Source: an uncultured Bacteroides sp.
GTDB taxonomy: Bacteria > Bacteroidota > Bacteroidia > Bacteroidales > Bacteroidaceae
Direction: 5' to 3'
Assembly (NCBI GenBank): GCA_947646015.1
Contig: CANSEY010000010.1
Span: forward strand, 1-64,000
Length of the DNA stretch: 64,000 nt
The position numbers and the translations under genes are program-made. Of this stretch, positions 9,792 through 30,600 are shown piece by piece; position 1 is the stretch's first letter; each line of letters begins with the position of its first letter. The notes below the pieces were generated by a model, which was not told the DNA's origin, did not search any database, and saw nothing but the letters and a program-made list of their open reading frames with translations.

Positions 9792-10370
9792 ATGGGGCAA
9801 CTGGAACTTATTCAAAGTAAGATTTACGAGATTAGAGGGCAAAAGGTCATGTTAGACTTTGATTTGGCGGAAATGTACGGTATTGAAACGAGGGTATTAA
9901 AACAGGCAGTACGTCGCAACCTGAAACGCTTCGAAGGTGAGGACTTTATGTTTGAACTAACAAAGGAAGAACTTTCAAGATCACAAATTGTGACCTTGAA
10001 CAGAGGTAGAGGCGGAAATTTTAAATATATGCCCTTTGCTTTCACTGAGTTAGGTGTTGCAATGCTGAGCAGTGTTCTAAATTCTGATACTGCGATAGAA
10101 ATAAACAGGGGTATTATGCGCGCATTTGTAGCGGTTAGAAACCTTCTGCTTAATCCTCCTACTGATCCGGTATATGAACTACAAAACGAGATGAAGGAAC
10201 TCAAAACGTATATCGAAGAAGTGTTTGCCGACTATAACGACATAAACGACGACACCCGAGTACAACTGGAACTTATTAACCAGACGCTGGCCGAGTTACA
10301 GGCACAAAAGAAACTGGCTGATAAACCCCGCAACCCCATCGGCTTTGTTACTACGAAACCAAAAGAGTAA
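9792..10370 (+). CDS. ORF6N-domain DNA-binding protein
   Basis: 192 residues. The N-terminal ~95 residues are an ORF6N domain: IYEIRGQKVMLDFDLAEMYGIETRVLKQAVRRN, FEGEDFMFELTKEE, then KYMPFAFTELGVAMLSSVL. The C-terminal half (YELQNEMKELKTYIEEV onward) is a likely coiled coil. ORF6N proteins are phage- and element-associated regulators related to KilA-N/antirepressor families. It follows the XRE repressor by 2 bp, so the pair forms a repressor/regulator operon. The exact target is unknown. Confidence 0.85.
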   Translation: MGQLELIQSKIYEIRGQKVMLDFDLAEMYGIETRVLKQAVRRNLKRFEGEDFMFELTKEELSRSQIVTLNRGRGGNFKYMPFAFTELGVAMLSSVLNSDTAIEINRGIMRAFVAVRNLLLNPPTDPVYELQNEMKELKTYIEEVFADYNDINDDTRVQLELINQTLAELQAQKKLADKPRNPIGFVTTKPKE

Positions 10371-10867
10371 TACCAATTGTTAACTACTGGCAAAACGGCT
10401 GGCATATCTACTGGCGAAACTACCGTAAATTTTCCGGTAGTTATGTCAGTAGTCAGACTACCCGGCCGCTATGAAGCAACGTTTATTTGTTTCGATTCTG
10501 CATTATCATTTGCGTACCTATTTGCGTTCCTTCGCTGTTTCCTTGCGTATGGGAACTGTTTATTAACTTGCGGTTTATTAGATAGTTGAGGCAAGCAAAT
10601 TGTGTTTCCTTTTGCGTTCCTGTTCCTTTCTCGCTTGTTCTGCCATGGCTGCAACAAAGACTGATGATATGTTGCCCTTTACCCTGTCCCTTATGCTGTC
10701 TCTCTGTATATGTTGATTTGGGCGAGCGTATCAGAGTGAATGGGGCGGGCTTTTTTATACAATGGGGTAAGCCGCCCAAACCCACCTCACCCAGTTTTTT
10801 TACGCGCGAGGTGTTTTTATTCTGGGGGGGGATCGCTGGGGGTGATGCAATTTATCACTATTCATTT
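10371..10867. other. ~490-bp noncoding region of the element; candidate origin
   Basis: Lies between the convergent ends of the ORF6N gene and the antirepressor gene. A perfect hairpin, AACTACCG (10418-10425) / CGGTAGTT (10435-10442), sits just past the ORF6N stop. A second near-perfect one (CCGGTAGT / ACTACCCGG) overlaps it. Further right are reiterated TTGCGTTCCTT-like words and a G-run (10826-10832). Open frames here look like chance. The hairpins could be a terminator or part of a rolling-circle origin. Confidence 0.4.
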
Positions 10868-11650
10868 TCAATTCAGTAGTTTAAATGTTCCTGACTTATA
10901 TAATTTCATGATAAAATATTCGCCTGTTTCCGTCCAATACATGTGCTTTTCTGTTCTTGGCTCACCAGTATTGGGGTTGGTAAAGTGGAACGTCTTATAT
11001 CCTTCAAGCCCCTTTCCGCGCATGTCGCTGTATAACACATAGACCCCGTTAACTTTGTATTGTACCTTTGAATCACAAAGGAACTTATTGAGTTTACGGG
11101 CACTTATACCCAATTCAGCGGCGATGGAATCGGTTGCAATAAGCGATTTTGATTGTAACACCTTATCACAATATTCTGCTTTGGGCTTCATCGCTTCAAT
11201 TGCTTGCGTGTTAGCCACATTCTGCATACGGAGTGATACATTCTGCTTCTGTTCTGTTTTCAGGGCTGTAAGCAAACGAATCATATTATCAGGGTTTCGT
11301 ATCACCTGCTCAATAGTTTCCAACGTCATATATGCGCCATGCTTGCGGATGGATGGTAATACCTCGGACGTTACCCACTTGCGGAACGGTTTCGCCCTTT
11401 CTGAATCGCTACGAATAACGACATCATACAACCCGCTCTCAGTGACAAACGTAGCCTGCTGTCCATTTCTTAACCCTAAGTCTAACTTAGCCTTTAAATC
11501 ATCATCCAATCGACTCGCTACAGCCGTTGGGTTAGATAATCCAATCACGCCGCATACATCGGCCAAACAGAATAAAGGCTCTCCGCTTGCAGTTATTACG
11601 GTTCTAACCTGGCCCAAACTCTCATTGCTAAAAATCTTAATTTCGTTCAT
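10868..11650 (-). CDS. Phage-type antirepressor (BRO-N domain)
   Basis: 260 residues from the ATG at 11648-11650 (the frame extends 11 codons upstream, but MNEIKIFSNE matches usual BRO-N starts and avoids overlap with the next gene). Residues 1-105 form a Bro-N domain: GEPLFCLADVCGVIGLSNPTAVASRL, ESGLYDVVIRSDSERAKPFRKWVTSEVLPSIRKHG. The C-terminal part (YCDKVLQSKSLIATDSIAAELGISARKLNKFLCD) is the KilAC/ANT-type domain. Such proteins counteract repressors during induction. Here it is probably part of the same control circuit as the XRE repressor. Confidence 0.88.
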   Translation of the reverse strand: MNEIKIFSNESLGQVRTVITASGEPLFCLADVCGVIGLSNPTAVASRLDDDLKAKLDLGLRNGQQATFVTESGLYDVVIRSDSERAKPFRKWVTSEVLPSIRKHGAYMTLETIEQVIRNPDNMIRLLTALKTEQKQNVSLRMQNVANTQAIEAMKPKAEYCDKVLQSKSLIATDSIAAELGISARKLNKFLCDSKVQYKVNGVYVLYSDMRGKGLEGYKTFHFTNPNTGEPRTEKHMYWTETGEYFIMKLYKSGTFKLLN

Positions 11651-11663
11651 AATACTTTGGCTT

Positions 11664-12014
11664 TTAATTGTGTTTATTATCATTAAGTGACGTTTTGCCT
11701 GGTGATCGTTTCGGCTTTACAAATTCAAAATTTCTTTCGGCTTCTGAAAGATCACCGAACATCATTTCGATTTCATCCGGTACGGGATTCGGATTTTCTT
11801 CGTGTTCCGGATCGGCAACTCTCAGAAAACATCCCCATAAATATTGGTTCATCTCGTAGATACTTTTGAATCCGAATTTATCGCGTATCCGGCTTGCGCG
11901 CTCCCATTGTTTGTGATTAAGACGGGCTACAATCTTTTTAGGCGGGCCACCCAGTAATGCCAGCCTTTCCGCTTTCCTTGCCGCTCTTTTAGCGGCCTGT
12001 TCTTCTGGTAACAT
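11664..12014 (-). CDS. Unknown basic protein of the integrated element
   Basis: 116 residues. The N-terminus is rich in Ala, Lys, Arg (EEQAAKRAARKAERL), followed by KKIVARLNHKQWERASRIRDKFGFKSIYEMNQYLWG. That segment resembles ribbon-helix-helix/mobilisation accessory proteins only loosely, so I do not assign a family. The acidic C-terminus ends near the antirepressor start (13-bp gap). DNA binding is plausible from charge alone. Confidence 0.6.
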   Translation of the reverse strand: MLPEEQAAKRAARKAERLALLGGPPKKIVARLNHKQWERASRIRDKFGFKSIYEMNQYLWGCFLRVADPEHEENPNPVPDEIEMMFGDLSEAERNFEFVKPKRSPGKTSLNDNKHN

Positions 12015-15030: not shown

Positions 15031-16302
15031 CTATTTATTAATTACCATTTGATTAAAGAAACTGTGTGCCCGTAGTTGCAGGGCGTTTTCTTTGTCTGAA
15101 ATCTTAATGTATTTCATAAAAGAGGATTCTGTTTTGTGTCCGGTGATTTTCATTATACTAATGGCTGGCACACCTGCAATAAAAGCATTTGTTGCAAACG
15201 AGCGCCGGGCGGTGTGGCTTGTTACGAGTTCCCATTTTGGCAACGTCTTTTTGAATGATAGATCGCCCTTTTGCAGGTCTAAGCAAATTGGTTCGTTTAT
15301 CTTTGCCAGCTTGGCGACTTCTTTTATATAGTCGTTAAACTTTTGATTTGATGGGATTTTAGGCAAGTCATACCTGTATTTCTCCATTATTAACCGCACC
15401 CTTGTGTGGAGTGGTATTACTACAGTATGCCCGGTTTTAATGGTTTTTATTGTTATTGTTCCATCGCCACTGAAATTATCCGCACATAGCTGTGATAAAT
15501 CGCTAAAACGCAATCCAGTACAGCAGCCTATTATAAACAGATCGCGCACCCGGTCAAGCCGTTTAGCTAATGATAAATCAATATTGTATATCTGTGTTAA
15601 TTCCGAATCATTGAGATACACCGAAAAGGTTTCAGAACTTGGCTTTTTGAAACTTTTCTTTTTGAAATCTAAGTTTTTATGCAATCCCCTGTCATAAGAT
15701 TCGTTCATAAACGTTTTGACATCCTTTATACGAGTTCCTACAGTGTTGGGTGAATAGTTTTTTGATGTCAAAAACTCTACGAAATCTAAATGAAAGTCTA
15801 AATTTATTTCATCAAATCTTAGTCGTTTATTTTTTAATATTGAATAGTCTTTTAATTCTCTAAGCGTTTGTTTATAACCCTTTATAGTAAGTGGCTTTCT
15901 ATCACATATTTCTATAAAGTTTTCAATGAATGCAGGTAATGTGTCTATTATCGTTTCTTTTACTTGCTTGTGTGCTTTGTATATGCTATCCAGCTCTTTT
16001 GTTATTAGTTCATTTGTTGGCGCTATTCCGTCATTCTCCAATCTGCGTAGTATATCCATTGTCTTTGCCTCGATATTGGTTAATGACATTTTTAGTTCTT
16101 TGTATCTTTGAATGTTTTTAGGCTCACCTTTGGATTTGTCCCAGCCGTCTGGGTGTATTGTGTGCGTTGTATAGTACTTTAATGGTAGGTACTTCTTTTT
16201 GCCGTTTGGCAGGAGTTGAAATGCTCCGTAGCTAAACAGGAAATATATAGCCGTTTCGTCTTTAGATTTGGGACGTGTGAGATAGAATTTGATAGTAGCC
16301 AT
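15031..16302 (-). CDS. int: Tyrosine recombinase, integrase of the element
   Basis: 423 residues. The N-terminal arm-binding domain begins MATIKFYLTRPKSKDETAIYF. The SAM-like core-binding region covers residues ~120-215. The catalytic domain has all residues: Arg in CTGLRFSD, Lys in IKTIKTGHTV, HTARRSFAT (His-x-x-Arg), GHKTESS, and the nucleophile in FMKYIKIS. It is the last gene before attR, reads inward from it, and the attachment site is the tRNA-Arg 3' end. Expected role: integration and, with a directionality factor, excision. Confidence 0.93.
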   Translation of the reverse strand: MATIKFYLTRPKSKDETAIYFLFSYGAFQLLPNGKKKYLPLKYYTTHTIHPDGWDKSKGEPKNIQRYKELKMSLTNIEAKTMDILRRLENDGIAPTNELITKELDSIYKAHKQVKETIIDTLPAFIENFIEICDRKPLTIKGYKQTLRELKDYSILKNKRLRFDEINLDFHLDFVEFLTSKNYSPNTVGTRIKDVKTFMNESYDRGLHKNLDFKKKSFKKPSSETFSVYLNDSELTQIYNIDLSLAKRLDRVRDLFIIGCCTGLRFSDLSQLCADNFSGDGTITIKTIKTGHTVVIPLHTRVRLIMEKYRYDLPKIPSNQKFNDYIKEVAKLAKINEPICLDLQKGDLSFKKTLPKWELVTSHTARRSFATNAFIAGVPAISIMKITGHKTESSFMKYIKISDKENALQLRAHSFFNQMVINK

Positions 16303-16483: not shown

Positions 16484-16500
16484 TCTCCTCGGGGCTACAA
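16484..16500 (+). repeat. attR: second copy of the 17-bp tRNA 3'-end repeat
   Basis: Identical to 8120-8136. It lies about 180 bp outside the integrase start, as expected. Upstream bases do not match the tRNA, so this copy is only the 3' fragment displaced by integration. Confidence 0.85.
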
Positions 16501-16882: not shown

Positions 16883-18124
16883 TTGGAGAAGAAAATTGGA
16901 AAGTTAAGTATCAGGGTGTTGTTGAATACCCATCGTAGAAATGATTGTGAGATTTATCCTCTGATTATCCGTGTGGTTTATCACAGGCGTAAAAGTGAGT
17001 ATTCTCTTGGGTGGAAGATTCATACTTCTAATTTCTCTGCAGATCGTGAGCGTGTTGTCTATTCATCAACCGGTAATCTTAAGCGCAAGGATCTGGGACT
17101 TATCAATGATGCCATTTCTCAGGAGCGTGAACGATTGCTGAAGATTTTTGCTTTTCTTCAACAGAATATGCCGGGTTTCAGCTTATCTCAGTTGATGGAT
17201 AAGTATCGTATGGAGCGCAATTTGCGTTATGTCGATGCTTTTATTGTGCGTGAGATAGAGAGGCTTCGGCAGGAGGGGCGTTCCGGTACTGCCGGCCTGT
17301 ACCTTAGCGGATTGTACTCTTTACGACGTTTTTTGCGTGGTCAGAAGATTACGTTTCGCGAGTTGACTTATTGTTTTCTTACGGATTATATTCATTTTCT
17401 ACGTATGCGCGGTATCTCTGAAAATACTGTGAATATGTATATTCGCAATCTCCGGGCTGTCTATAACAAAGCCCAAAAGCAGGGGATAAATATGGGTTGT
17501 GAGTCTCCCTTCCGGGAGCTTAAGCTTCAAACTCAGGAGACTGCGAAGCGTGCGTTGTGTAAGCATGATATTGCCCGTATAGTATCTGTTGATCTTTCCT
17601 CCGAACCTTTATTGGATCGTGCCCGGGATCTTTTTATGTTTAGTTTCTATGCCCGTGGGATGCCTTTTGTCGATATTGTCTTTCTTAAACATGACTCGAT
17701 AATCAATGGAATCATTTATTATGAGCGTAATAAAACGGGGCAACGCATGCAAGTTCGTGTGATTCCTCCTCTCGCAGCTCTGATTGAGAAGTATCGGAGT
17801 TCTTATCCGTATGTATTGCCGTATATAACGTCTTTTTCGGACCGTACGTCTTATATGCAATATCGCTATGCATTGGGTAATGTTAACCGCCTACTCAAAC
17901 GGTTGGGCAGGCGATTGCACCTGCCTCTTGTACTGACTACCTATGTTGCTCGCCATAGCTGGGCGACTATTGCCAAAGAGGAGGGATTTTCTATCGCATC
18001 TATCAGCGAAGGGCTTGGGCATACTTCTGAGGCAACGACCCAGATTTATCTTCAGTCTTTTAATAGTGAGGTCATTGATAAGATTAACGAGCAAGTCGTA
18101 GCCTCTATAGGAAGGCATATCTGA
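16883..18124 (+). CDS. Tsr-like tyrosine site-specific recombinase (candidate DNA invertase)
   Basis: 413 residues from a TTG start (no nearby in-frame ATG; product begins MEKKIGKLSIRVLLNTHRRNDCEIYPLIIRV). The catalytic domain shows Arg in YARGMPFVDIVFL, Lys in YYERNKTGQRMQV, TYVARHSWAT (the first His of His-x-x-Arg is replaced by Tyr, as in many Bacteroides Tsr-type recombinases), GLGHTSEATTQ and nucleophile Tyr in IYLQSF. Bacteroides relatives invert promoters of surface-structure genes. It lies 76 bp from a 23-bp inverted repeat bounding a 1.28-kb segment, and upstream of a fimbrial operon, so I infer it flips that segment. Confidence 0.88.
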   Translation: MEKKIGKLSIRVLLNTHRRNDCEIYPLIIRVVYHRRKSEYSLGWKIHTSNFSADRERVVYSSTGNLKRKDLGLINDAISQERERLLKIFAFLQQNMPGFSLSQLMDKYRMERNLRYVDAFIVREIERLRQEGRSGTAGLYLSGLYSLRRFLRGQKITFRELTYCFLTDYIHFLRMRGISENTVNMYIRNLRAVYNKAQKQGINMGCESPFRELKLQTQETAKRALCKHDIARIVSVDLSSEPLLDRARDLFMFSFYARGMPFVDIVFLKHDSIINGIIYYERNKTGQRMQVRVIPPLAALIEKYRSSYPYVLPYITSFSDRTSYMQYRYALGNVNRLLKRLGRRLHLPLVLTTYVARHSWATIAKEEGFSIASISEGLGHTSEATTQIYLQSFNSEVIDKINEQVVASIGRHI

Positions 18125-18199: not shown

Positions 18200-18222
18200 C
18201 ATCTATCTCAATAGGATAGATA
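18200..18222 (+). repeat. Left inverted repeat of the invertible segment (IRL)
   Basis: The core is ATCTATC - TCAATAG - GATAGAT (18201-18221): two 7-bp inverted arms around a 7-bp asymmetric spacer, the architecture of a tyrosine-recombinase crossover site. The whole 23 bp recurs in reverse complement at 19456-19478. Outside, GTTC continues the match with one inserted C. Confidence 0.88.
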
Positions 18223-18282
18223 ACGAGGGTAAAACCCTGACAAAACATGCTTTCTGCTCTTTCAACTACAAAACTCTACTTT

Positions 18283-18334
18283 AGTGATTCTTGTTTGACA
18301 GGGCAAAGATAATGCACCTGCAAAAAGAATCACT
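18283..18334 (-). promoter_or_regulatory. Outward-facing promoter with flanking inverted repeat
   Basis: The minus strand reads TATCTTTG (18304-18311), a perfect -7 box, but no TTTG stands at the -33 position. Instead a perfect 10-bp inverted repeat flanks it: AGTGATTCTT on one side (complement of 18325-18334, overlapping the -33 region) and AAGAATCACT on the other (complement of 18283-18292). This suggests a regulated, activator- or repressor-dependent promoter, plausibly controlled by the AraC protein encoded in the same segment. Confidence 0.65.
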
Positions 18335-18370
18335 TATCCAAAGCAACCATTTACTTCACCTTTTCCGAGA

Positions 18371-19258
18371 TTATATTTTAAGATTCTGATTATCAATATG
18401 CTTGTCTTTGAGCTGCCTGACCAACTCTCTTGGGGAATTACCGAAATTCTTTTTGCAGTATTTATTGAAACTGGCCGCTGAAGAGAAGCCGAATTCATAC
18501 ACAATCTCTTTTACACTGGCTCCGGGTTGCGCCAACCGATAAATGATTTTCTTGTTTTTTTGTTTCAGCAACCATGAATATACTGATTCGCCAAATTCTA
18601 CCTTGAACTTTCTGGCAAGATCGGTAATACTCATTCCCATTGCCTGTGCTAATTCCTCACGATTGTTCACGCGATCAACATGCAGTAAAACAGCAGCTTT
18701 GAAGCTCATATTCGTTCCTATGATTTCATGAAATAAATTTACTATTTCCTGTTTGCTATAGCTTGTTCTCAAAATAATAAAGAGTTCTTTCTCCTTAATG
18801 GAGTGCAAATGCTTACAGTTGACTCCGGCTCTCAGGTAGGCATCCATTAATTCCAGAAATAAGTTCAGCGGGTGGCGTACCGATAGTATTCCGACCTCTT
18901 CAGATGCTTCTCTCACTTCTTTTAGATAGCTCTCTAACATGTGTTTCTCACATAGTTTAATGTCATTGTATAGGAAGCTCATATAAATGTAGCGTCCGGG
19001 GACTCGTACCTGTATCTCGTAAGTGGATAATGCCGAGATGAAAAAGAATTCTTGGGCTATTACCCTTTTTATTTTGCCTTCTTTGGGAATAATCTCCACT
19101 TCACCTTCAAGAATGAAGATCAGGAAATTAGTTTTAACAGATAAGGTCTGACTATTGAAGTTACTGCCGCTTGTAAGCGTTCCAATCCCGAATCCCTCAT
19201 ACGATTCACTTTTATAATTGGTGCATGAGATGTGCTCTTTTTTGTAATGTAGTTTCAT
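18371..19258 (-). CDS. AraC-family transcriptional regulator inside the invertible segment
   Basis: 295 residues. The C-terminal ~100 residues hold the two AraC helix-turn-helices: NREELAQAMGMSITDLARKFKVEFGESVYSWLLKQ and KKIIYRLAQPGASVKEIVYEFGFSSAASFNKYCKKNFGNSPRELVRQL (the second with the family signature). The N-terminal ~110 residues look like a cupin-type sensor (FLIFILEGEVEIIPKEGKIKRVIAQEFFFI). It lies alone within the 23-bp inverted repeats, its 3' end towards the recombinase. Likely activates or tunes the fimbrial operon or the segment's own promoter; the target is inference. Confidence 0.9.
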   Translation of the reverse strand: MKLHYKKEHISCTNYKSESYEGFGIGTLTSGSNFNSQTLSVKTNFLIFILEGEVEIIPKEGKIKRVIAQEFFFISALSTYEIQVRVPGRYIYMSFLYNDIKLCEKHMLESYLKEVREASEEVGILSVRHPLNLFLELMDAYLRAGVNCKHLHSIKEKELFIILRTSYSKQEIVNLFHEIIGTNMSFKAAVLLHVDRVNNREELAQAMGMSITDLARKFKVEFGESVYSWLLKQKNKKIIYRLAQPGASVKEIVYEFGFSSAASFNKYCKKNFGNSPRELVRQLKDKHIDNQNLKI

Positions 19259-19640
19259 TTTTAGTTTTGTAAATTATAGCTTGATATATTTATGTTTTTA
19301 TTAAAATGTTTCATAATATGTTTCGCCGGATTTTGATATAATATATTATTATACAGCGATCTATTTAAAATCGACATGTGCCTATCGCATAGAAAAACAT
19401 TTGCTGAAACAATATTATGTATATAACGCTGATAATCAGGAGTACTTTCTATCACTATCTATCCTATTGAGATAGATGAACTTGATCTGTGTAAGAAGAT
19501 TAAAATAGATGTTCTATGGTTTTTGTAACCGTAACAATTGAATCTTGATGTGGTTCGGTGGAGGAGTATAAGATATTGCGGATTTTATGTATCCGATAAG
19601 TTTAATGTTTTTTTTAAGCAAAACAAGTTGAATAATAGTT
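19259..19640. other. Right end of invertible segment and leader of the fimbrial operon
   Basis: 19259-19455 is the AraC leader and carries its presumed promoter (no exact TAnnTTTG on the minus strand). IRR lies at 19456-19478. 19479-19640 is an AT-rich leader with no exact TAnnTTTG box on the plus strand, so the fimbrial operon seems to lack a fixed canonical promoter of its own. A short minus-strand open frame over 19261-19455 is probably chance. Confidence 0.5.
19456..19478 (-). repeat. Right inverted repeat of the invertible segment (IRR)
   Basis: Exact reverse complement of 18200-18222. The core reads ATCTATC - CTATTGA - GATAGAT on the plus strand. Its spacer is the reverse complement of the left one, fixing the inverted orientation of the two sites. 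It lies 162 bp before the DUF3575 gene. Confidence 0.88.
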
Positions 19641-20201
19641 ATGGCGTTTAAGCGATCTGTGTTTCTCTTTCTGTTGGTTGTTTCTTCTACGTTTTTAGGG
19701 GTCGAAATAGCTCGTGGGCAGGTTTATTCTTTGCAAACTAATGTTTTGGGTTGGGGTACTACCAATATGAATCTTGAGTTCGGGCTGAAGTTTTCCCATC
19801 GTTGGACCTTCCACTTTCCTCTTCAATATAATCCCTTCTCTTTTGGAGATGCGAGGCTTCGCAATTTGTCTGCTTCTCCCGGAGTGCGTTATTGGATCCG
19901 TGAATCTTATGGGCGTTCTTATTTCCTTGGAATTCACGGAGTGAGCACCATGTATAATGTCGGTGGAGTTTTTGGCGATAAATATCGTTACGAAGGCTAC
20001 GGTTTTGGAGGCGGACTTTCTTTGGGGTACAATCGTCCTCTTTCTCCTCATTGGAATTTAGAGTTTGAGGCAGGTCTTGGGGTCTTGTGGACCCATTATG
20101 ATAAATATGTTTGTAAGGCATGCGGGCAGAAAGTGGCTACTTTTAAGGGAGCACGTCTGATTCCGACCAAGTTGGCAGTGAATATAGTCTATTTATTCTA
20201 A
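19641..20201 (+). CDS. DUF3575-family outer-membrane protein, first gene of fimbrial operon
   Basis: 186 residues with a signal peptide (SVFLFLLVVSSTFLGVEIARGQ; cleavage near residue 28). The mature part is a small beta-barrel-like protein: YSLQTNVLGWGTTNMNLEFG, HFPLQYNPFSF, PGVRYWIRESYGRSYFLGIH, YGFGGGLSLGYNRPLSPHWNLEFEAGLGVLW, ending in an aromatic strand (VNIVYLF) as outer-membrane barrels do. DUF3575 genes commonly precede FimA/Mfa fimbrial subunits in Bacteroidales. It is followed by the TPR-like lipoprotein after 33 bp. The role in export or anchoring of fimbriae is inferred from context. Confidence 0.8.
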   Translation: MAFKRSVFLFLLVVSSTFLGVEIARGQVYSLQTNVLGWGTTNMNLEFGLKFSHRWTFHFPLQYNPFSFGDARLRNLSASPGVRYWIRESYGRSYFLGIHGVSTMYNVGGVFGDKYRYEGYGFGGGLSLGYNRPLSPHWNLEFEAGLGVLWTHYDKYVCKACGQKVATFKGARLIPTKLAVNIVYLF

Positions 20202-20234: not shown

Positions 20235-21950
20235 ATGATACATCAAAAAAAGTTCGTCACTATATCGATAGGGTATCGTATCTATAAAATGTTAGGGATG
20301 CTCTGTCTCTGTGTGCTGGTATATTCATGCGGTTCAAAATCTCCTTTGACTATGCGTTTGTTTATGCAGGCTGGCGGAGCTACTGTCGAGCTGCCGAATA
20401 CTTCTTCTGCGGATAGCGTTTTTACAGTCTCCGAAACTGTCGGTTTCCGGGATAGTGTGGTTGTTGACAATCCCGTTTCTTCGGTTGATTCTCTTGAAGA
20501 AGATATCTGGAAATCAATTGATATGGATCGCATTGATATTGTTGCTCAGCGTAAAAGTATAGAGCGAATCTTGGAACGTAATGGCGAGGTCACCCTGATG
20601 TTTTATGTAAAAGCTCCTAAAGTCCTATTGGACAGTTGCTGGAAGTTGACAATGTACCCGGAACTGATAGAAAAAGACTCTTCTGTTTTGCTGTCTCCTG
20701 TTATTCTGCGGGGAAAAGAATTTATCCGTACACAGGAAAGCCAGTATAAAGCATACGATGATTTCCTAAGGGGTATTATACCGGAGAGTAAATATGACAG
20801 TGCTTTTGTGGATCGTGAAGGTATCCGCAAAGATATTTTTGCACGGCAGAGACTTTTCTGGAAGGTCTATGAAGCAGAGCGACGTAGACGTCTGGCTTAT
20901 CTGAGGTGGAAGGCACTTATGGATAAGCGTCATGGATGGATCAGTACGAAAGCAGAGGGAAACCGTAATACTTTGAAGCAACGTATGCAGCGTAATGTCT
21001 TGGAACGCAGCGTGGAAAAATTCATCGCCGGTTATGATACGGTTGGTATACGTGCTTCGTACCAGAAAAAATACGATCGCCGTACGGATTTTTGGCCGGC
21101 TTACCGTTTGCCTCGTGCAATGACAGTTAAAGATGTTCCTTCCCGCTTTCAGGAACTTTATCTGTCCGGTGGGCGTCTTGAGGATATTCGTAACTACAGT
21201 TTCACTCGCCGGGATTCTATTGAGATCGCTTCCCATCGCTACTTCCGAAAAGCGATTGCAGAGAATGAATATAACCGGGATCATCAGGATTTGATTCGTG
21301 ACCGTATTATCCGCTTCCCTTATGCTGACAGTGCAATGGTCAATCAAACAGCTGATCCTTCGGAAGACTTCTCCTATCTGTATATGTATCGCATCCCGGT
21401 ACGTGAGGGAATGAAGAAATTACATATAACTCTTCGGGGAAACGTGCTCGCTACGGACCATAGCGTATGGAGTCTTCCTCCGGCGGATACATTGACATTC
21501 GTAATTGCGTCTGTTGCCGACTTGGCTGATGCTACTCTGGCGCGTCGTTTTGATATAGCGGGTGACAGTGTGAACCATCTTACTCCTGAGCGTGAGGAGT
21601 ATGCCCAAGGACTTGAGGCCCTGTCCAATCGTGAATATCAGAGAGCTTTGGGTATCCTGGAGAAATATCCGGACTACAATACAGCTGTTGCCTTGACTTG
21701 TTTGGGCTATCATGCAAAGTCGGAAGATTTGTTAAAGCAACTGCCTCAAACAGCTGCGGTTGAATATCTCCGAGCGATTGTGAATGTGCGCTTGGAAGAC
21801 TACCAAGCGGCAGCAGAACTTCTGTTGGAGGCATGCCGTAAAGATACTAAATATGTATACCGTACAGAAATGGACTCTGATATTGCAGCACTTCTTCCCA
21901 GATTTATGGGCCTGAAGGAGGAGCTGGAGCGAATAGCTTCTGAAGAGTAA
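20235..21950 (+). CDS. Fimbrial-operon lipoprotein with C-terminal TPR-like repeats (DUF3868-like)
   Basis: 571 residues; the hydrophobic segment MLGMLCLCVLVYSC ends in a lipobox, so Met at 20289 is an alternative start. The middle is rich in Arg, Tyr and Asp, with charged helices. The last ~110 residues (LEALSNREYQRALGILEKYPDYNTAVALTCLGYHAKSEDLLKQL, then YLRAIVNVRLEDYQAAAELLLEACRKD) look like TPR repeats. Proteins of this kind travel with DUF3575 proteins ahead of fimbrillins. Family naming is tentative. Probably a periplasm- or surface-exposed assembly factor. Confidence 0.65.
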   Translation: MIHQKKFVTISIGYRIYKMLGMLCLCVLVYSCGSKSPLTMRLFMQAGGATVELPNTSSADSVFTVSETVGFRDSVVVDNPVSSVDSLEEDIWKSIDMDRIDIVAQRKSIERILERNGEVTLMFYVKAPKVLLDSCWKLTMYPELIEKDSSVLLSPVILRGKEFIRTQESQYKAYDDFLRGIIPESKYDSAFVDREGIRKDIFARQRLFWKVYEAERRRRLAYLRWKALMDKRHGWISTKAEGNRNTLKQRMQRNVLERSVEKFIAGYDTVGIRASYQKKYDRRTDFWPAYRLPRAMTVKDVPSRFQELYLSGGRLEDIRNYSFTRRDSIEIASHRYFRKAIAENEYNRDHQDLIRDRIIRFPYADSAMVNQTADPSEDFSYLYMYRIPVREGMKKLHITLRGNVLATDHSVWSLPPADTLTFVIASVADLADATLARRFDIAGDSVNHLTPEREEYAQGLEALSNREYQRALGILEKYPDYNTAVALTCLGYHAKSEDLLKQLPQTAAVEYLRAIVNVRLEDYQAAAELLLEACRKDTKYVYRTEMDSDIAALLPRFMGLKEELERIASEE

Positions 21951-22029: not shown

Positions 22030-23094
22030 ATGAGAATTACAAAATCGATTCTGGCCTTAATGGCTGCAACCATGACGTTCGCTGCATGTAGCAACGATGA
22101 GAAAATTACGGAGAGTACTCCTAAGACGGTAGCTTTGACTGTGAAGCTGCCAGAGTTCGGCGGAGCTTCGAGTAGAGCTATTGATCCTGAGACTACTACA
22201 GGGAATAAAGTGACTATTAATGGACCTGTAAAAATTATCGCACGTGTTTCACAAGGTGGTGCTATTACCAATACAATTAGTGAAAACATTACAGCTGGTT
22301 CAATGTCCACTATTACAGTTTCTGGTGCGGCACAGTGGATTGAGGTAGAGGCTAATGGTGATAATAGTGCTGAAACTGATAATGTAAACACTCGTCAAGG
22401 ATCAGCTACATCAAGTAAAGTGCGTTTGTTTGGAGGAGCAGCGATAAATCCAGGAAGTGGTGGAAATGCAACTTGCACTCCGACAATAAACCCTGATATG
22501 GCGCGTGTGGAAGTAAAGGGTAGTCTGGCCGGCCCCTGGACGCATCTGAATGATTTAAAGATAAAGGGGATTTACATTAATAATGTTAAGCTTACCAGAG
22601 GTGCTTCTTCATTGACCAGAATTGCGTCGGCTGCCTGGGGTACGGATTATGCTCCATCCGGTCAGTTTGAGAAAATGTTTAATACTGATTTAGGAGCAGG
22701 TGTAGGAACTGGAGTGGCTCAGATTGCGGGTGGACAAGCCGATGGATATAACTTCTTCCCTCAGCAAGATCTTTCTTCTCCTACCACAAAGGAAGATGTT
22801 ATGAAGAAATCGATCCATGTTATCATGGAAGTTGAGTTTGATAAGAAAGTTGGTGGCTCAGGTCCGGAAACCGGCTGGCTTAATGTGGTTGCTTTAAAGG
22901 ATAATACAGCTACTAACTATATTACAGACTTTGAAGCCGGTAAGGTATACTTTATTAACCTTGCCGATATCAAGGATATTATGGATGTTCCGGTTCCTCC
23001 TGTAACTCCGGACCCCGATCCGGAAACTGTTTCTGTAGATCTTACTGTAAACATAGGTCAGTGGACTGTAGTTCAGGTTAAGCCTGAAGTTTAA
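22030..23094 (+). CDS. Fimbrillin (Mfa1/FimA-family major subunit candidate)
   Basis: 354 residues. Signal ITKSILALMAATMTFAAC ends in a lipobox, typical of type V pilins, which are exported as lipoproteins. An N-terminal extension contains TPKTVALTVKLPEFGGASSRAID, with an Arg near residue 54 that could be the processing site used before polymerisation (by analogy with Porphyromonas fimbrillins; inference). The C-terminal PVPPVTPDPDPETVSVDLTVNIGQWTVVQV fits the final strand exchanged between subunits. It lies between the TPR-like lipoprotein and the Mfa2/FimB-like anchor. It has a long leader of 79 bp, so extra regulation or separate expression is possible. Confidence 0.8.
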   Translation: MRITKSILALMAATMTFAACSNDEKITESTPKTVALTVKLPEFGGASSRAIDPETTTGNKVTINGPVKIIARVSQGGAITNTISENITAGSMSTITVSGAAQWIEVEANGDNSAETDNVNTRQGSATSSKVRLFGGAAINPGSGGNATCTPTINPDMARVEVKGSLAGPWTHLNDLKIKGIYINNVKLTRGASSLTRIASAAWGTDYAPSGQFEKMFNTDLGAGVGTGVAQIAGGQADGYNFFPQQDLSSPTTKEDVMKKSIHVIMEVEFDKKVGGSGPETGWLNVVALKDNTATNYITDFEAGKVYFINLADIKDIMDVPVPPVTPDPDPETVSVDLTVNIGQWTVVQVKPEV

Positions 23095-23176: not shown

Positions 23177-24160
23177 ATGATATTTGTCGGGAAGAAAAAC
23201 AGCACTTCGTTTTTTCTGCTTATTTCACTCATTTTAGGACTGGCTCTCTATACAGCCTTATTTAGCAGTTGTGTTTACGAGGACTTGAGTAAATGTTCAC
23301 GGATGTTTATGTTACAGCCACGTTATCTTTTGCATACGGGTGAAGGCGATCGTTTTGGAGAAGCTGTCCACCATATAGATGTGTATGCGTTCGACTCCCT
23401 CGGCATTTATCGCAAAATGTTTCGGGACAAAGGAGCACATTTGAAGAATGGCTACCGGATGCCTATTGACCTTCCTGAGGGGAAATGGACCTTTTTATGC
23501 TTGGGAGGTAAGGTTGGTGATTACGAGATTGGCATTTTTAAGACAGGTATTCCTCAACAGTTTAGCCCGGCTGTCTCTCCGGGGATTACCACTCTTTCGG
23601 ATTTTCGTGTAAAAGCGTATTTTGAGCAGAAAGAAAATTTAGAATACTCATTTGGTGAGTTGTTCTTTGGGCGTCTGGACTCCGTGGAGATCACAGCTGA
23701 TAACGGTGGGACAGGTGTAGTAGACTTAATGAAAAACACGAATAAGATAGAAGTCCGTGTGAAGGGAATCGCTGATGGTTCATCAGCCCGTATCACCTCT
23801 GATAACGGACGCTTTAACTCAGAAAATGTTACGCCGGCCGATGCCGGTACGATTATATATGTTCCTTATTATAGCGCATCTCAAGCGGATGATACCCGTG
23901 TTTTCCAGTTTGATGTATTGCGCCTGTATACTGACGGGCATCTGTTCCTTAAATTGCTGAATCCCGATGGAACAGATGTTATTCCGGGATTTACAAAAGA
24001 TTTAATCAATGCTATTATGTCCTCTCCCGCATACCATACTCAGGAGGATTTGGATAGAGAGGATACCTATCTGATTGAATTGGTGCTTTCTAAAGACGGA
24101 GTCATTATCTCTTTGCGGGTAAATGGCTGGGAAACTGTCAGTACTACTCCGGAGGTCTGA
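23177..24160 (+). CDS. FimB/Mfa2-family fimbrial anchor subunit
   Basis: 327 residues with a lipoprotein signal (FLLISLILGLALYTALFSSC), followed by VYEDLSKCSR, the Cys/DL motif typical of Mfa2/FimB proteins. The body contains HIDVYAFDSLGIYRKMF and YRMPIDLPEGKWTFLCLGG, matching this family's first beta-sandwich domain. Such proteins cap the fimbrial base and limit length (established for Porphyromonas Mfa2/FimB). It follows the fimbrillin by 82 bp in the same orientation. Confidence 0.85.
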   Translation: MIFVGKKNSTSFFLLISLILGLALYTALFSSCVYEDLSKCSRMFMLQPRYLLHTGEGDRFGEAVHHIDVYAFDSLGIYRKMFRDKGAHLKNGYRMPIDLPEGKWTFLCLGGKVGDYEIGIFKTGIPQQFSPAVSPGITTLSDFRVKAYFEQKENLEYSFGELFFGRLDSVEITADNGGTGVVDLMKNTNKIEVRVKGIADGSSARITSDNGRFNSENVTPADAGTIIYVPYYSASQADDTRVFQFDVLRLYTDGHLFLKLLNPDGTDVIPGFTKDLINAIMSSPAYHTQEDLDREDTYLIELVLSKDGVIISLRVNGWETVSTTPEV

Positions 24161-24407
24161 CAAGGAAAGTGAGAATTCAAACGGAGTGGCTACGGATGTT
24201 TTTATGGGTAAATAGAATTTGTTTTTTAGAGTGAATTCGTGCCTCTCTCGTGTTGGAAGGTTGTTTTGTCGTCGGGATGAAGCTACTTTGTCAGGACAAG
24301 GTAGGCGTAGGCCGGCACAAAACACCTTCTTTTGAGAGTGTATAAAGTTTTAAAAGTAGAGGGCGGAGTATACTATTAATGAACTGAATCTAAATTGATT
24401 GCATAAA
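24161..24407. other. Intergenic stretch within the fimbrial operon
   Basis: About 245 bp between the anchor gene and the first large lipoprotein. It has no convincing ORF or perfect hairpin. GACAAGGTAGGCGTAGGCCGG-like G-rich words near 24295-24315 suggest structured RNA or an eroded gene end. Confidence 0.3.
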
Positions 24408-27400
24408 ATGAGCTTATTAAAGAAAAAGTATATGAGATGTGTAAAAGGAATATATATATTCTTTTTGCTACTGTCTTTTATCTCTTGTGAACTGGAAGAT
24501 AAAATAGGAAGATATACTTCGGGAGACAATCCGGTAGAAGTAGAACTTATGACTCGTAATGTCACTTTAGGAGGAAGTGAATCCGGAGTGACTCTGAAGC
24601 GCTTGCGTGTAATTGCTGTGGCGAAAAACAGTGGAAAGGTGGAAATGAATCGCCGTGCCGATTTAAGTGATCCTTCATCATCCGGTTTAGAGCATACAGG
24701 GGGAGTGTTTAAACTCTATCTTCGTCCGGGTGATTACGATTTGTTTGTGATCGGTAATGAAACGACGGGCATGAATTCCGCATTAACCGGAGAGCCATCT
24801 TTATCAGAAATTAAAAGTGTACCGGTTACTCTACCTGTAGATACGGCAGAGTTTGTGGTATGCAAGCATCTGGATATCCGGATAAGAAATGCAGCCTCTT
24901 CAACTCCGGTCACAGGGGAAGTCAGTGTGGATGAAGGATTAACCTGGAATTCAGCGTTCTCGGTTGAGTTGGAGCGCATTGCTTCAAAGGCGAGTCTGGA
25001 GATACGAAAAAATACGGATGAAGATATAAAGATCAGGCAGGTCACTGTTAAACAGTTACCTTCGTTCTCTTTTCTTTCCCCCTCTGCTTATCCGCTTTCC
25101 GGCGGGCTTACGGTTACTGATACGCGTTCGTTTTCTACACCTGTTTCTATCGCCGGAGAGAAAGATGTTCCCTCAGGATATCCGTATACATCTGTTGTAC
25201 AGGGAAAGAATAGCTTTATCTTGCCGGAGTACATTTGGGATAATACGGCAGGGAAGGGGCGTGCTTCTTTTATGGAAATAGAGGCTGAACGTAATGGAGC
25301 GTCAGAAACATGGCAAATATTATTGGGAAAGAGTACGGATATTCCGGCTGACTACTCACTTGGGCGTAACACTTACTATCGATATATGCTGACCGTGAAT
25401 CCGCTGAATGTCGATGTAAATGTAAGTGTAGAACCATGGCAGAATACGGCTGCTTATGATACGATTCCCGGAGCAAAGATCGTTTTCTCACGGGTCAATG
25501 TCGGTTATTCGTATGCTTCTGAGAGTGTTGTTACGTTTACAACCAAAAACTTGCCTCCTGTATCTGTCAGCCTATCTCCTGTACTATATACTTATAATTC
25601 TACAGGTGATCCTGTGAGTTCTAAATTTGATATGACACGGACTAAGATCAATTACAGCTATGACCAGGATACAGGAACAGGCATGGGAACTCTTACCATA
25701 AAACGGAACAAAGTTTCTCTTGCGGATACTTTGCTATTGATGGCAGGAGGATTTGCGCATACAATCGCTGTGGAAGGAGTGGAGTTTGCTGGTTCTAATA
25801 TCTATTTTGATAGGGTTCTCGAGAAGTTTACCTTTGATGATACTCCTGCACCGGGATGCAGAGCGGAACATGAGAAATTTCAGGGGGCGTCTTTTTATTG
25901 GGGTTCTTTACAAGGGTATAACACCGGATATAATTTTCTGGCCACACGTAAGAGTGATAGAAAATGGGGTTATATTTCTGCTCCGGTCTGGATCTCTGCA
26001 TTTTCTGTTGTTGGGGGAGATGATGAGAATCTGATTCTTCAGAAGGGATTACATGATCCTAAAAATCTGAAAGGTGACATCTGTCGCTTTATAACGCAAA
26101 GAGAATGGGGACCCGGAAATAAGAAGTGGCGGATGCCTACTTTAGATGAACTGAAGCTTTTGGGAGATGGGGTTCGGGAAACTACTGCTTCTACTCCGAA
26201 TTGGGGTTATATTTCTGGCAGTTCGAGTGGGGGTAGCACTGTTATTGGCAATGGAATTCGTACAAATAACCGCTATTATCTTCCAGCTAATGATAATGGG
26301 CTTAGAGGGAGATATTGGTCTGCTTCCGCTGCAATCAGTGCTTCAGCCCGGGGACTTTACTTTGAATATCTAAGCACTTCTGTGCAAGATTGGAATACTT
26401 CATCGGCGGTTGGAGTCATTCGTTGCGTTGTTGATTCTGAGAATAATTATTCAAAAGTTTATCGTGTTGTTTATTCGAATACCGATCCTCTGAATCAAGA
26501 AAGTCACTTGTATACTGTTTCGCCACCGGCATTGTTGAACGAGGGGGAAACGATAGTATTGCCAGCGCTGTCTACAAAATTCAATGATTACGAAGTACGT
26601 GAAGGGAATAAAGTGGTAACAAAGTATTTTCATTCCGGATGGCTTGTAAATGGACGGCATTTTGATTTTGGTGATTCATATGTGGCCGGTGCTGATGGGG
26701 TAGGAAGCACTGAAGTGGAGATTATACCTGAATGGACTAAATTTTGTAAAATAGAGTATGTTTGTACCCCTCCATATCCCGGAGCTGTTTTTTATTCGGC
26801 TTTTCCTTCGTTTCCCAATAATATTCACTTCGTGAAGCCAGGGGAACGTTATTCTTTACCAAATGTTCAGGTAGCGGTTATGTCTTCACCGGTTAAGATA
26901 GCTGTCGGACTTTTGGTGAATGGTATTCGTTATAATTGGGGGGACGAAATGCCTGTTTTCAGCGATATTAAAGTAGAACCCTGTTGGGCAAATGTACCTG
27001 AGAGTTCATTTGCATCAACTAATCTGAAACTTTCTAATTCTGGTGCAATTGATGCAACTCTCATTTTTGCATCTGAAGGTGAAACAGGAACCTTATTTCT
27101 CTGGGATATATTGAGGTGCAATTCTGTTACTTTACCTGGATTTACTGTGAATGGAGTGAGTATAGCATCACCCACCGTAGCAGATTATGATAGAGGACGT
27201 GTGATACATAGTGTAAGTGGATTAAAACGGGGGGTGGGTGATATATGTCGTTTAGTAGGTATTCCTCTAAATGAAATAAATGCAAAATTAGCCGCCGGAA
27301 TATTGCCGGACAATGGGACATGGCGATTACCTACTGCCAACGAACTGGCTGCTCTATTACATCCATTTCAAGATAGTTCACAAGGAAGAGTTTACTCTAT

Positions 27401-27593
27401 TTTAAATAATACTTTCTTTCCATATAATGCGAAGTATGGTACAAAGGATATTACATATCCCACCGCTGAAATTAGTATTCCACATTTGCCAAGTATATAT
27501 GCATGGGGAGGGCTTATAAGGTTAGGCTCGAGAATTGCTATAAGACCGTATGCTAGCACTGCTGAAACTGCCATTCGTTGCATCCGCCAATAG
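24408..27593 (+). CDS. Large fimbria-associated lipoprotein (DUF4906-like, FISUMP-like domains, two Listeria-Bacteroides-type repeats)
   Basis: 1061 residues from ATG 24408 (a TTG lies three codons upstream). Signal YIFFLLLSFISC ends in a lipobox. The N-terminal half is fimbrillin-like (DUF4906 type) with YRYMLTVNPLNVDVNVSVEPW. From ~residue 555 there is a FISUMP-like lectin-type module (GDICRFITQREWGPGNKKWRMPTLDE ... YWSASAA ... IRCVVD). Then come two ~85-residue beta-grasp repeats of the Listeria-Bacteroides type (each ending HSGWLVNGR...PEWT or similar), then a second FISUMP-like module (GDICRLVGIP ... WRLPTANE ... AIRCIRQ). This suits an accessory or tip adhesin. Confidence 0.75.
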   Translation: MSLLKKKYMRCVKGIYIFFLLLSFISCELEDKIGRYTSGDNPVEVELMTRNVTLGGSESGVTLKRLRVIAVAKNSGKVEMNRRADLSDPSSSGLEHTGGVFKLYLRPGDYDLFVIGNETTGMNSALTGEPSLSEIKSVPVTLPVDTAEFVVCKHLDIRIRNAASSTPVTGEVSVDEGLTWNSAFSVELERIASKASLEIRKNTDEDIKIRQVTVKQLPSFSFLSPSAYPLSGGLTVTDTRSFSTPVSIAGEKDVPSGYPYTSVVQGKNSFILPEYIWDNTAGKGRASFMEIEAERNGASETWQILLGKSTDIPADYSLGRNTYYRYMLTVNPLNVDVNVSVEPWQNTAAYDTIPGAKIVFSRVNVGYSYASESVVTFTTKNLPPVSVSLSPVLYTYNSTGDPVSSKFDMTRTKINYSYDQDTGTGMGTLTIKRNKVSLADTLLLMAGGFAHTIAVEGVEFAGSNIYFDRVLEKFTFDDTPAPGCRAEHEKFQGASFYWGSLQGYNTGYNFLATRKSDRKWGYISAPVWISAFSVVGGDDENLILQKGLHDPKNLKGDICRFITQREWGPGNKKWRMPTLDELKLLGDGVRETTASTPNWGYISGSSSGGSTVIGNGIRTNNRYYLPANDNGLRGRYWSASAAISASARGLYFEYLSTSVQDWNTSSAVGVIRCVVDSENNYSKVYRVVYSNTDPLNQESHLYTVSPPALLNEGETIVLPALSTKFNDYEVREGNKVVTKYFHSGWLVNGRHFDFGDSYVAGADGVGSTEVEIIPEWTKFCKIEYVCTPPYPGAVFYSAFPSFPNNIHFVKPGERYSLPNVQVAVMSSPVKIAVGLLVNGIRYNWGDEMPVFSDIKVEPCWANVPESSFASTNLKLSNSGAIDATLIFASEGETGTLFLWDILRCNSVTLPGFTVNGVSIASPTVADYDRGRVIHSVSGLKRGVGDICRLVGIPLNEINAKLAAGILPDNGTWRLPTANELAALLHPFQDSSQGRVYSILNNTFFPYNAKYGTKDITYPTAEISIPHLPSIYAWGGLIRLGSRIAIRPYASTAETAIRCIRQ

Positions 27594-27629: not shown

Positions 27630-30600
27630 ATGTGTTTGAATAAAAATATTAAATCCTTTCTTGGGATACTTATGTGTGGGATATTGGCTTTTCTGCCGGT
27701 ATCCTGTTCAGATGATTCTCCGGTAACAGGTTCACCCTTGCTTCCGGAGGCTCCTGAAGGTAAAGTGAACGTATTTCTTTCTCTTCATAAAGGGAGTGAT
27801 TATGAATCTCCTGCCACACGTTCGGGGACAGCGGCCGATGAAACTATTATGGGACCTCCCTGGGTGTTGGTTTTTTTGGGGAATGATAAAGATGCGACTT
27901 TCTTGGAAGCCGTACAAGCCGATATGACCTCGGTCGGAGAGCTTTATGCACAATTAAGTGCCTGCAATTCTTCAGTGGTTTTGCTGTTGATTTCAAATGC
28001 CGATGAATTGATACAGGCGAAGTTAGGAGGTCTTACGACTACGACAACTTTATCCGATGCAGTTACCAATCTTCTTCTGTATGGCGATCCGTCGGATTCT
28101 CCTGTGGGGGGTAACTCTGCATTAGCAATTCCGCAAGCGACAGTTCCTTTTACAGGGAAGAAGATCCCGATGTCGGCCTATTGTCCATTGCCACAGATTA
28201 TTACAGGTACTACTGTAGGAACTGTCGGTACCCCTTTTCGCCTAAAACGGATCGTATCTAAATTATACGTAGATGCTTCCGGTGCACATGCTTCCGATGG
28301 TTTTATTTTGACAGGAGTATCTGTTATTAACGTACCGGTACAAGGAGCACTTGCTTTTGAATATGGAAATGCGAATGAAACTTTACCTATTACGGCTCAA
28401 TTTACCGATTATGGTCATAAATCGGGTAGTACTTCCCGGTTGGACAATCCGATTATAGCCTCTTCAACAGGATTCGCCGGGCATACAACCGCAGGTATGG
28501 GAAGTGAAGACTATCCTGTTTATGTATATGAAACGGCAGGTGGCCCGGCTGACCGTTCGGATGTTATTCTTGCCGGTAAGTTTGATAACGGACCGGTTCG
28601 TTATTATCGCGCGAGTCTGAAAAACAGTAAAGGAGAAAAGCTGGCATTTAAAAGAAACTATCTTTATACGCTAAATCTGGTACGTGTGGAAGGAGGAGGC
28701 TATTCTACGATGGATGAGGCGATTGCTGCTCCTTCGGGTAGTAGCGGAATTCTTTGCAATGTTACGGTGGTAGACGATTCGCATGAAATAACAGGTAATG
28801 GTGTTTATTATTTGGGGCTGACGAATTCTTCTTATGTGCTTTATACGGATGAAGAACAGAAGGATGTTACGGTATGTGTGATAGGGACCAATGCGTACAG
28901 CCGTCCGGGAAGTACGGTTACTCCGGGAGTGGTAAGCATGTCGTCCGGGATAGCCGGTGTGACTCTTAAAACTACTTCGATCTCCGCAGACTCGACTGCC
29001 ATTAAGTTGGATTTTGCCAAGGGGGCGCAGGGAGAAACGACCCTTGATGTTCAGGTTGGAGGATTGCGTAGGGAAATAAAGCTGAAAGCTGCCGGTATGG
29101 GTGTTTCCGGCAATTATGCTTCAGGTTATCAAGGACTCTTGTTGGGAGATTTCAACCAGATCCGTATTCTTGAAAGTACGTCTAAGTCTGGACTGGCAAT
29201 ATCTCCCGCATCTCCGGACCGGGATAGCGAGGTCATCTCTTCCGTTACTTCTCCTTCTGTCCCTGTTTACTTCTTTGTCGAGGAGGCTGCGGGCCCACAA
29301 AGTGCTAAATTGTCGGGCCTTGCGGGAGAATCCGTCGTTGTTATAGAGAATCGGGTGTATAACGATCTCCCTGCCGCATCTAATATTTATTGGGACGCGG
29401 CACAAGGCAGATTGACGTTCGATGATGTTCCGTCGTATGTTCCTGCTGCCCGAAACCAAAAACAGGGAGTGTATTTTCTGTATGGTTCCTTAATTGCACT
29501 GCAAGGAGGAAGCAGCGCAACTGATGTGCGTCAGCTCGATGCAGCAGAAGTGAATCCTGTATGGAAAACCAATCAGTCTCCGAACATTCCTAAGTTTAAT
29601 CCCGCCTCTTTAGCTCCCGGAGCAGATCTGGAGAATGTATTGACACATATTCATAATCCGGGTAATCGTATTGGTGATATCTGCCGTTATCTTACGCAGC
29701 GCGGATGGGCTCCTCCGGGAAAGAAATGGAAGATGCCTGTGAAAGAACGTTTGGAAGCTGTCTTGAACAGTATATATAGAACTGAAGGATCTTGGTTACC
29801 GATAGGGGGACTTGCGACAGACGGTACTGGTGAAGTTGTTCACGGGAGATTGATAAAGGATCGATTTTACTTTCCGGCATCGGGTTCACGCAAAGAAGAT
29901 GGAACCTTTATCGAGCAACCGGGTGTCTCCGGACACTACTGGAGTTCTTCTGTCATTTCCGGCAGTATCGGATGGCAACCTGCTTCGCTGTGGTTTCAGG
30001 GAGGGGATGCTGCAATACAGGCAACTGCTTTGGACGTGGCTCTTCCGGTTCGTTGTGTCGTAGATAATACGTCTACCGATTGGCCGGAATTAGCTACTGT
30101 CGCTTATTATGCTTCTCCGCCGGGAGGAGCAACATTAACCTCGGAACTGCCGGCCAATCATTTTGTGGAGCAACGCAAACCTTTTGCGCTGCCCTCTACC
30201 CCTTTGACTTTCAGTGATCCGTCTGTGACTCATACCGGCTGGGGCAATAATCTTGGATTGGGAGAAAATACTACTATAAACACTAGTGTTGGCAGTTTTC
30301 ATGCGACTTTTAGCCAAGGTGCTTCTCTAGAGTATGACTCTAATCTTCCTGCAGGTACGGCTTTAGTGTCCGGAACGGTTCCGGGAGTCTATGTTGCTGC
30401 CGGAGGTACGAGTATCAAACTTTCGACGAACCAGTTGGTATGTAGTAATCCAGGTTATGTGCATACCGGATGGAGCATCGATGGAGTTTATCATGGATTG
30501 GGCGCAAACTATGTGATGCATGCATCCGGTTCCAGGAAGGCTTTTGCCGTATGGTCACGTGACTGCTGGGTTGAGTATCTGGCAAAGGCGCCTGCGGGTG

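Follow-up and report, generated by a model that had tools for sequence, protein, structure and literature searches.

A probable Tsr-type inversion switch that carries an araC-family gene next to a Bacteroides fimbrial operon

The locus and its inverted repeats

The window analysed here is a 64,000-nucleotide stretch of DNA from an uncultured Bacteroides sp., in which a gene for a tyrosine recombinase (tsr), a segment bounded by inverted repeats and a fimbrial operon follow one another. The features are listed with the basis of each assignment in brackets.

16883–18124, plus strand: tsr, tyrosine recombinase of 413 aa, probable cognate invertase (Pfam Arm-DNA-bind_5, Phage_int_SAM_5 and Phage_integrase)
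18200–18222, plus strand: inverted repeat on the tsr side, a probable recombination site (two 7-bp arms around the spacer TCAATAG)
18304–18311, minus strand: putative promoter element P_out, TATCTTTG, fitting the Bacteroides −7 consensus TAnnTTTG (sequence match)
18334–18342, minus strand: candidate site for an activator, TTTGGATAA, upstream of the −7 element at a fixed spacing (motif conservation)
18371–19258, minus strand: araC, AraC-family regulator of 295 aa, antiparallel to tsr and the operon (Pfam HTH_18, E = 7e-19; HTH_AraC, E = 2e-6)
19456–19478, minus strand: inverted repeat on the fimbria side, a probable recombination site (two 7-bp arms around a 7-bp spacer)
19641–20201, plus strand: DUF3575 gene, first of the operon, 186 aa (Pfam, E = 9e-52)
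20235–21950, plus strand: operon gene for a 571-aa protein (no Pfam family exceeded its cut-off)
22030–23094, plus strand: operon gene for a 354-aa protein (46% identity to a gene between DUF3575 and Mfa2 in locus L066; no Pfam match)
23177–24160, plus strand: Mfa2-family anchor protein of Bacteroidales fimbriae (Pfam, E = 2.1e-54)
24399–27593, plus strand: operon gene, 1064 aa (Lcl_C just below the cut-off)
27630–32153, plus strand: operon gene for a 1507-aa protein that is related to the one of 1064 aa (no Pfam match)

The repeats form a perfect 23-bp pair in inverted orientation, separated by 1233 nt, and each consists of a 7-bp arm, the 7-bp spacer TCAATAG and a second 7-bp arm. When the bases of the surrounding 5 kb were shuffled 100 times, no shuffle gave a perfect inverted repeat at least 18 bp long with a spacing of 300–3500 bp. 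A search of the assembly to which the window belongs (4.9 Mb, 74.7% complete) with the 21-bp core of the repeat, allowing up to three mismatches, returned the two sites in the window only. The araC open reading frame lies entirely within the segment and is the sole gene enclosed; its product has a C-terminal AraC-type helix-turn-helix. A reading of this DNA made earlier from the sequence alone had described the perfect repeats with their arms and spacer, a whole AraC regulator gene between recombinase and fimbrial operon, and a distance of 162 bp from the repeat to the first fimbrial gene, all of which we confirmed; the 76 bp that it gave between the other repeat and the recombinase gene is 75 bp, tsr ending at position 18124.

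Two features known from Tsr-type invertible promoters are present, namely a tyrosine recombinase gene beside the segment, as assigned by Pfam, and repeats of the inverted type with inner arms and equal spacers. The residues K284, R357, H380 and Y389 of Tsr, which we take to be catalytic, are invariant in the 13 aligned relatives. A second tyrosine recombinase (15031–16302, minus strand), with about 27% identity to the first across 255 aa, is divergently oriented; it is missing from the 20-kb counterpart of the locus in B. fragilis NCTC 9343, where colinearity begins at position 16484.

As to the parts of a type V (Mfa/Fim) fimbrial operon, the anchor (Mfa2) was found and no stalk or tip pilins were identified in the window. 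The 1064-aa protein is a probable structural or tip component. The DUF3575 protein, the 571-aa protein and Mfa2 are 99.6–100% identical to their NCTC 9343 counterparts, and the 354-aa (22030–23094) and 1064-aa (24399–27593) proteins are 88% and 82% identical to theirs. These two proteins may be fast-diverging surface parts.

A family of tsr-linked cassettes in the genus

Relatives of Tsr were sought with an alignment of 13 recombinases in 158 genomes from the genus, each representing a different species. With at most 11 candidates scored per genome, which makes the count a lower bound, at least 20 close Tsr genes (over 530 bits; 539–657 bits) were present in 14 of the 158 genomes, and all 20 loci, including that of the window, were read. 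A repeat-flanked araC gene adjoins tsr in 19 of the 20 (18 by a common repeat criterion and L059 by 93% identity over 28 nt). The module thus occurs in at least 13 of the 158 genomes; the fourteenth, G065, holds an orphan tsr alone. This exception, L077 (7760–8980), is a close Tsr relative near which no araC was found, and neither DUF3575 nor Mfa2 was found in its 18-kb locus; it is possibly a relic.

The order tsr, araC, fimbrial-operon gene is kept in 18 of the 19 loci. Past the segment, the next gene encodes DUF3575 in 14 loci, 12 of them recognised by their similarity to the gene in the window and two, L065 and L079, by Pfam. In four others (L062, L064, L073 and L080) it encodes a FimA/fimbrillin major subunit; in L081, 3,317 N bases follow the segment, and no target could be read there. 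B. fragilis NCTC 9343 (as which we take genome G072) has two such loci, L056 and L073; its counterpart of the window locus is 97% identical to it, colinear with it and in the same orientation. L062, L064 and L073 have a second, more distant araC-family gene behind tsr, in the same direction as tsr. Genome G074 has two very similar module copies with identical sites, L065 and L079, between which recombination could rearrange the chromosome.

In family-wide searches, each covering 399 genomes taken from a larger group and scoring few candidates in each genome, the matches listed included no close Tsr outside the genus (best 436 bits, L095), and the best AraC outside it reached 296 bits. Searches of viral contigs (with the AraC alignment and the 21-bp site) and of plasmids returned neither flipped copies nor relatives, and genome contigs gave one remote AraC-type match.

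Comparison of the putative recombination sites between loci supports inversion of the segment. After the sites had been put in register, the central 7 bp were equal between the two copies in all 19 loci, among which the window and L056, as well as L065 and L079, are near-duplicates; across these loci, 13 different spacer 7-mers occur. The within-locus mismatches number 22 over 399 positions, and 21 of them lie at positions 1–3 or 21 of the 21-mer, the remaining one at position 7. The two spacer copies, 1.2 kb apart, change together exactly where the strands must match, so that recombination between the sites is the best explanation. Such concerted change is the pattern expected of real strand-exchange sites, from which we infer inversion itself. 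In L058 (8768–8796) and L059 (10373–10400), the repeat on the tsr side extends into the end of the recombinase gene, and inversion could alter the last few residues of the recombinase.

The repeats could instead be operators for Tsr or AraC, or relics, with no inversion now or with inversion on an evolutionary time scale alone. This would agree with the single orientation of all 19 loci, described below. It is nevertheless improbable, given the joint change of both spacer copies through 13 different 7-mers and the distribution of the repeats. When we applied the same repeat criterion to the 17 araC relatives without tsr pairing in the fetched loci, 16 had no repeats and one had a 14-nt match, whereas among 14 loci in which a Tsr relative has no araC partner, seven had a repeat-bounded segment that contains no whole gene (L085, L086, L095, L096, L098, L099 and L100; those without repeats are L077, L082, L083, L084, L087, L097 and L103). 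It is thus the recombinase, and not AraC, that the repeats accompany.

In a tree of 35 AraC proteins, the members without tsr require four label changes, three of them forced by well-supported branches. Paired and unpaired araC genes thus appear to be interleaved, with long branches leaving the details unsure. AraC and Tsr identities are correlated (Spearman 0.73, for pairs that are not independent). L088, an araC without tsr nested among the paired ones, was considered as a possible locked derivative; inspection revealed no remnants of the site arms that such a derivative might retain, and its surroundings were uninformative.

The putative outward promoter element and the present orientation

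Between the 3′ end of araC and the tsr-side repeat lies P_out, which is now aimed at the tsr end and would be aimed at the fimbrial operon if the segment were inverted. The accessible text of PMC4747536 and PMC3090145 gives TAnnTTTG as the −7 consensus of Bacteroides. An outward TWnnTTTGC (T[A/T]nnTTTGC), a pattern chosen after the sequences had been seen, occurs between the araC stop codon and the tsr-side repeat in 18 of the 19 loci (0.47 of 19 expected from base shuffling); by this sequence match, these 18 segments have a putative outward promoter of the Bacteroides type. The single locus without it, L073, has TACTTTTGTAGC in that place. Elsewhere the pattern is rare: inward on the tsr side in 1 of 19, and on the araC 5′ side outward in 1 and inward in 2. 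The strict TAnnTTTG gives a less sharp contrast, with 12, 6, 2 and 2 of 19 for the same four positions and 1.8 expected for the first. The stretch from the other repeat to the operon has no such element in 17 of the 19 loci (one of these, L081, has the N run there), and in L065 and L079 an outward element lies outside the segment, between the repeat and the operon. The sequence-only reading had supposed that inversion changes the direction of a promoter, which it did not locate; the conserved outward element at the araC 3′ end supplies a candidate. Matches to E. coli-type promoters (19 found, 13.2 expected) were disregarded.

By eye, a canonical −33 TTTG is not found at its usual distance from the −7 element in the window. 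The motif TTTGGAYAA stands at a constant distance upstream of the −7 element in the clade of the window and is absent from the araC 5′ side there. L059 has three copies of this type, at positions 19, 40 and 61, a period of 21 bp; AraC half-sites typically lie about 21 bp apart. AraC may bind the candidate site of the TTTGGATAA type. As a point against the proposed switch, P_out in L057 is separated from the repeat by a strong hairpin with a T-run (z −5.1), and a similar hairpin was seen by eye in L070. Folding of L058, L059 and the window revealed nothing comparable at that place, where the window has a weak terminator-like match (two in the region, 3.2 expected). A hairpin after P_out fits attenuation and plain araC termination alike.

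Since P_out points to the recombinase end, we read the orientation in the window as OFF, which it probably is. Relatives without tsr and repeats are in line with this reading. In all seven of those with DUF3575 no more than 842 nt downstream of araC (L066, L070, L075 and L091–L094), the two genes are co-directional, and three (L091–L093, two of which are close relatives) have an exact TAnnTTTG between araC and DUF3575, about 40 nt from the start codon. This fixed layout is what inversion of the window segment would be predicted to create. The exact element is absent before DUF3575 in L066, L070, L075 and L094, and another ORF intervenes in L075 and L094.

All 19 loci share one orientation, araC being antiparallel to tsr in each, and the reverse was seen in none (0 of 19 loci, at one orientation per assembly). 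The reversed copies in related genomes that the earlier reading had called for as a check were therefore not forthcoming, an unfavourable outcome. Its central proposal, that the recombinase flips a cassette including a whole regulator gene, gains from the 19 tsr-paired loci with spacers changing in concert and loses by the lack of any reversed locus. Nineteen loci alike would be very unlikely were the orientations equally common; hence OFF must be strongly favoured in the sequenced cells, or inversion must be rare. The three sister segments without araC (L085, L086 and L096, two of them 97% identical) also have one orientation, OFF by the same reasoning. As a control, we compared two short repeat-bounded segments, situated beside other recombinases, that are common to the genome of the window and NCTC 9343; five other fetched loci had no counterpart among those compared. 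Both were colinear, so that the shared orientation of the window genome and NCTC 9343 says little. An OFF bias has a precedent in the IVp-I promoter driven by Tsr19, which all three B. fragilis genome sequences show in the OFF state (accessible text of PMC3090145) and mostly OFF in culture (accessible text of PMC3090145 and PMC4747536).

If the segment inverts, the present orientation might alternatively be ON, with araC and the operon expressed divergently from the araC 5′ side and separated by inversion. Divergent regulator–target pairs are a common AraC layout, and the araC 5′ side, 133–265 bp long in the 19 loci, has room for a promoter; an outward TAGTTTTG occurs there in the window and in L056, although just 4 nt from the araC start codon. 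We regard this arrangement as unlikely, because the outward TWnnTTTGC occurs in 1 of 19 loci on that side against 18 of 19 on the other, and because the seven relatives without tsr and repeats have araC co-directional with DUF3575. For the non-inverting repeats considered above, which we hold to be a shade less credible than this, the OFF precedent of IVp-I in the same three genomes (accessible text of PMC3090145) weakens the argument from uniform orientation. That a small araC-carrying mobile element uses the repeats as its attachment sites is very hard to credit: Tsr falls within the phage-integrase superfamily and L057 has a third repeat copy, direct to one other and bounding an AAA_14 gene, but the sites flanking araC are inverted, so that recombination inverts and does not excise, tsr lies outside the segment, and the gene order is kept in all loci except L081 with its N run.

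The third site copy of L057 (genome G066) is 93% identical to the other sites (repeats at 10279–10305 and 11745–11771). With its directly oriented neighbour it bounds a gene at 10454–11632 (minus strand) that has an AAA_14 domain and, below the cut-off, DUF4143; excision of this gene between the direct copies is conceivable.

The proposed switch and its relation to known inversion systems

We consider it likely that the locus is a Tsr-type site-specific inversion switch, whose segment of about 1.26 kb carries the gene of an AraC activator together with P_out beyond the araC 3′ end and which at present is OFF. Tsr would recombine the two sites and invert the segment, and AraC would bind the site of the TTTGGATAA type and activate P_out. 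In the present orientation, P_out would fire toward the tsr 3′ end, leaving the operon OFF; in the inverted one, P_out and araC would read into the DUF3575/Mfa2 operon and turn it ON, with a leader of about 270 nt by arithmetic. The araC gene would travel with the promoter that it probably controls.

A further step would couple the packaging of an activator with its own target promoter to feedback from orientation. In the OFF state, antisense transcription from P_out would restrain tsr; in the ON state the antisense would be lost, read-through from tsr would make araC sense RNA, and more recombinase would bring about reversion. The tsr stop codon lies 75 bp beyond the repeat, and the repeat and the end of tsr overlap in L058 and L059. 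If this feedback operated, it would explain why all 19 loci are OFF. That antisense transcription into tsr favours OFF is speculative, and the scheme as a whole is doubtful.

Whatever its regulation, the proposed switch would work like the known Bacteroides promoter inversions, as a larger unit that carries a regulator; in holding a whole araC-family gene, the segment differs from the Tsr-driven invertible promoters of B. fragilis. A B. fragilis Tsr locus for outer-surface proteins, possibly fimbrial, was reportedly described by Weinacht et al. in 2004, and it might be the locus of the window. The sister segments L085, L086 and L096, the last from NCTC 9343, resemble that of the window in their related Tsr and inverted repeats, and in all three the promoter element lies at the tsr end and points toward tsr, away from the next genes (DUF3575 in L085 and L086). 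They are unlike it in being about 530 bp long and without an araC gene.

In the flagellar switch of Salmonella, the invertible segment also contains a gene and an outward promoter; the serine recombinase Hin is encoded inside its own segment, whereas the segment of the window encloses a regulator and has its tyrosine recombinase beyond its borders. E. coli fimS, unlike the window cassette, is a short segment without a gene and belongs to another type of fimbria. The resemblance lies in the inversion, by FimB/FimE, upstream of a fimbrial operon (accessible text of PMC9820224). Inversion of the fin region Q of B. fragilis alters the direction of the enclosed genes (accessible text of PMC3090145), as it would in the window, but these are two hypothetical genes and not a regulator with a promoter. 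The Tsr19/BF2766 system with IVp-I is alike, as far as the accessible text of PMC4747536 and PMC3090145 goes, in its adjacent tyrosine recombinase, inverted repeats, TAnnTTTG promoter, downstream surface structures and OFF state in three genomes. In the titles and opening lines of abstracts of the literature found, with key older papers beyond reach, no araC gene inside an invertible segment was described.

Surveys by reads aimed at short invertible promoters may miss segments of more than 1 kb; the default of PhaseFinder is 750 bp. Short reads may overlook long alterations, according to the accessible text of PMC10939037. With L056 and L073, B. fragilis NCTC 9343 makes both the flip and the OFF bias directly testable. 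If the proposed switch is real, phase variation of Bacteroides fimbriae would involve more than the flipping of a promoter, in that the regulator would move together with the promoter.
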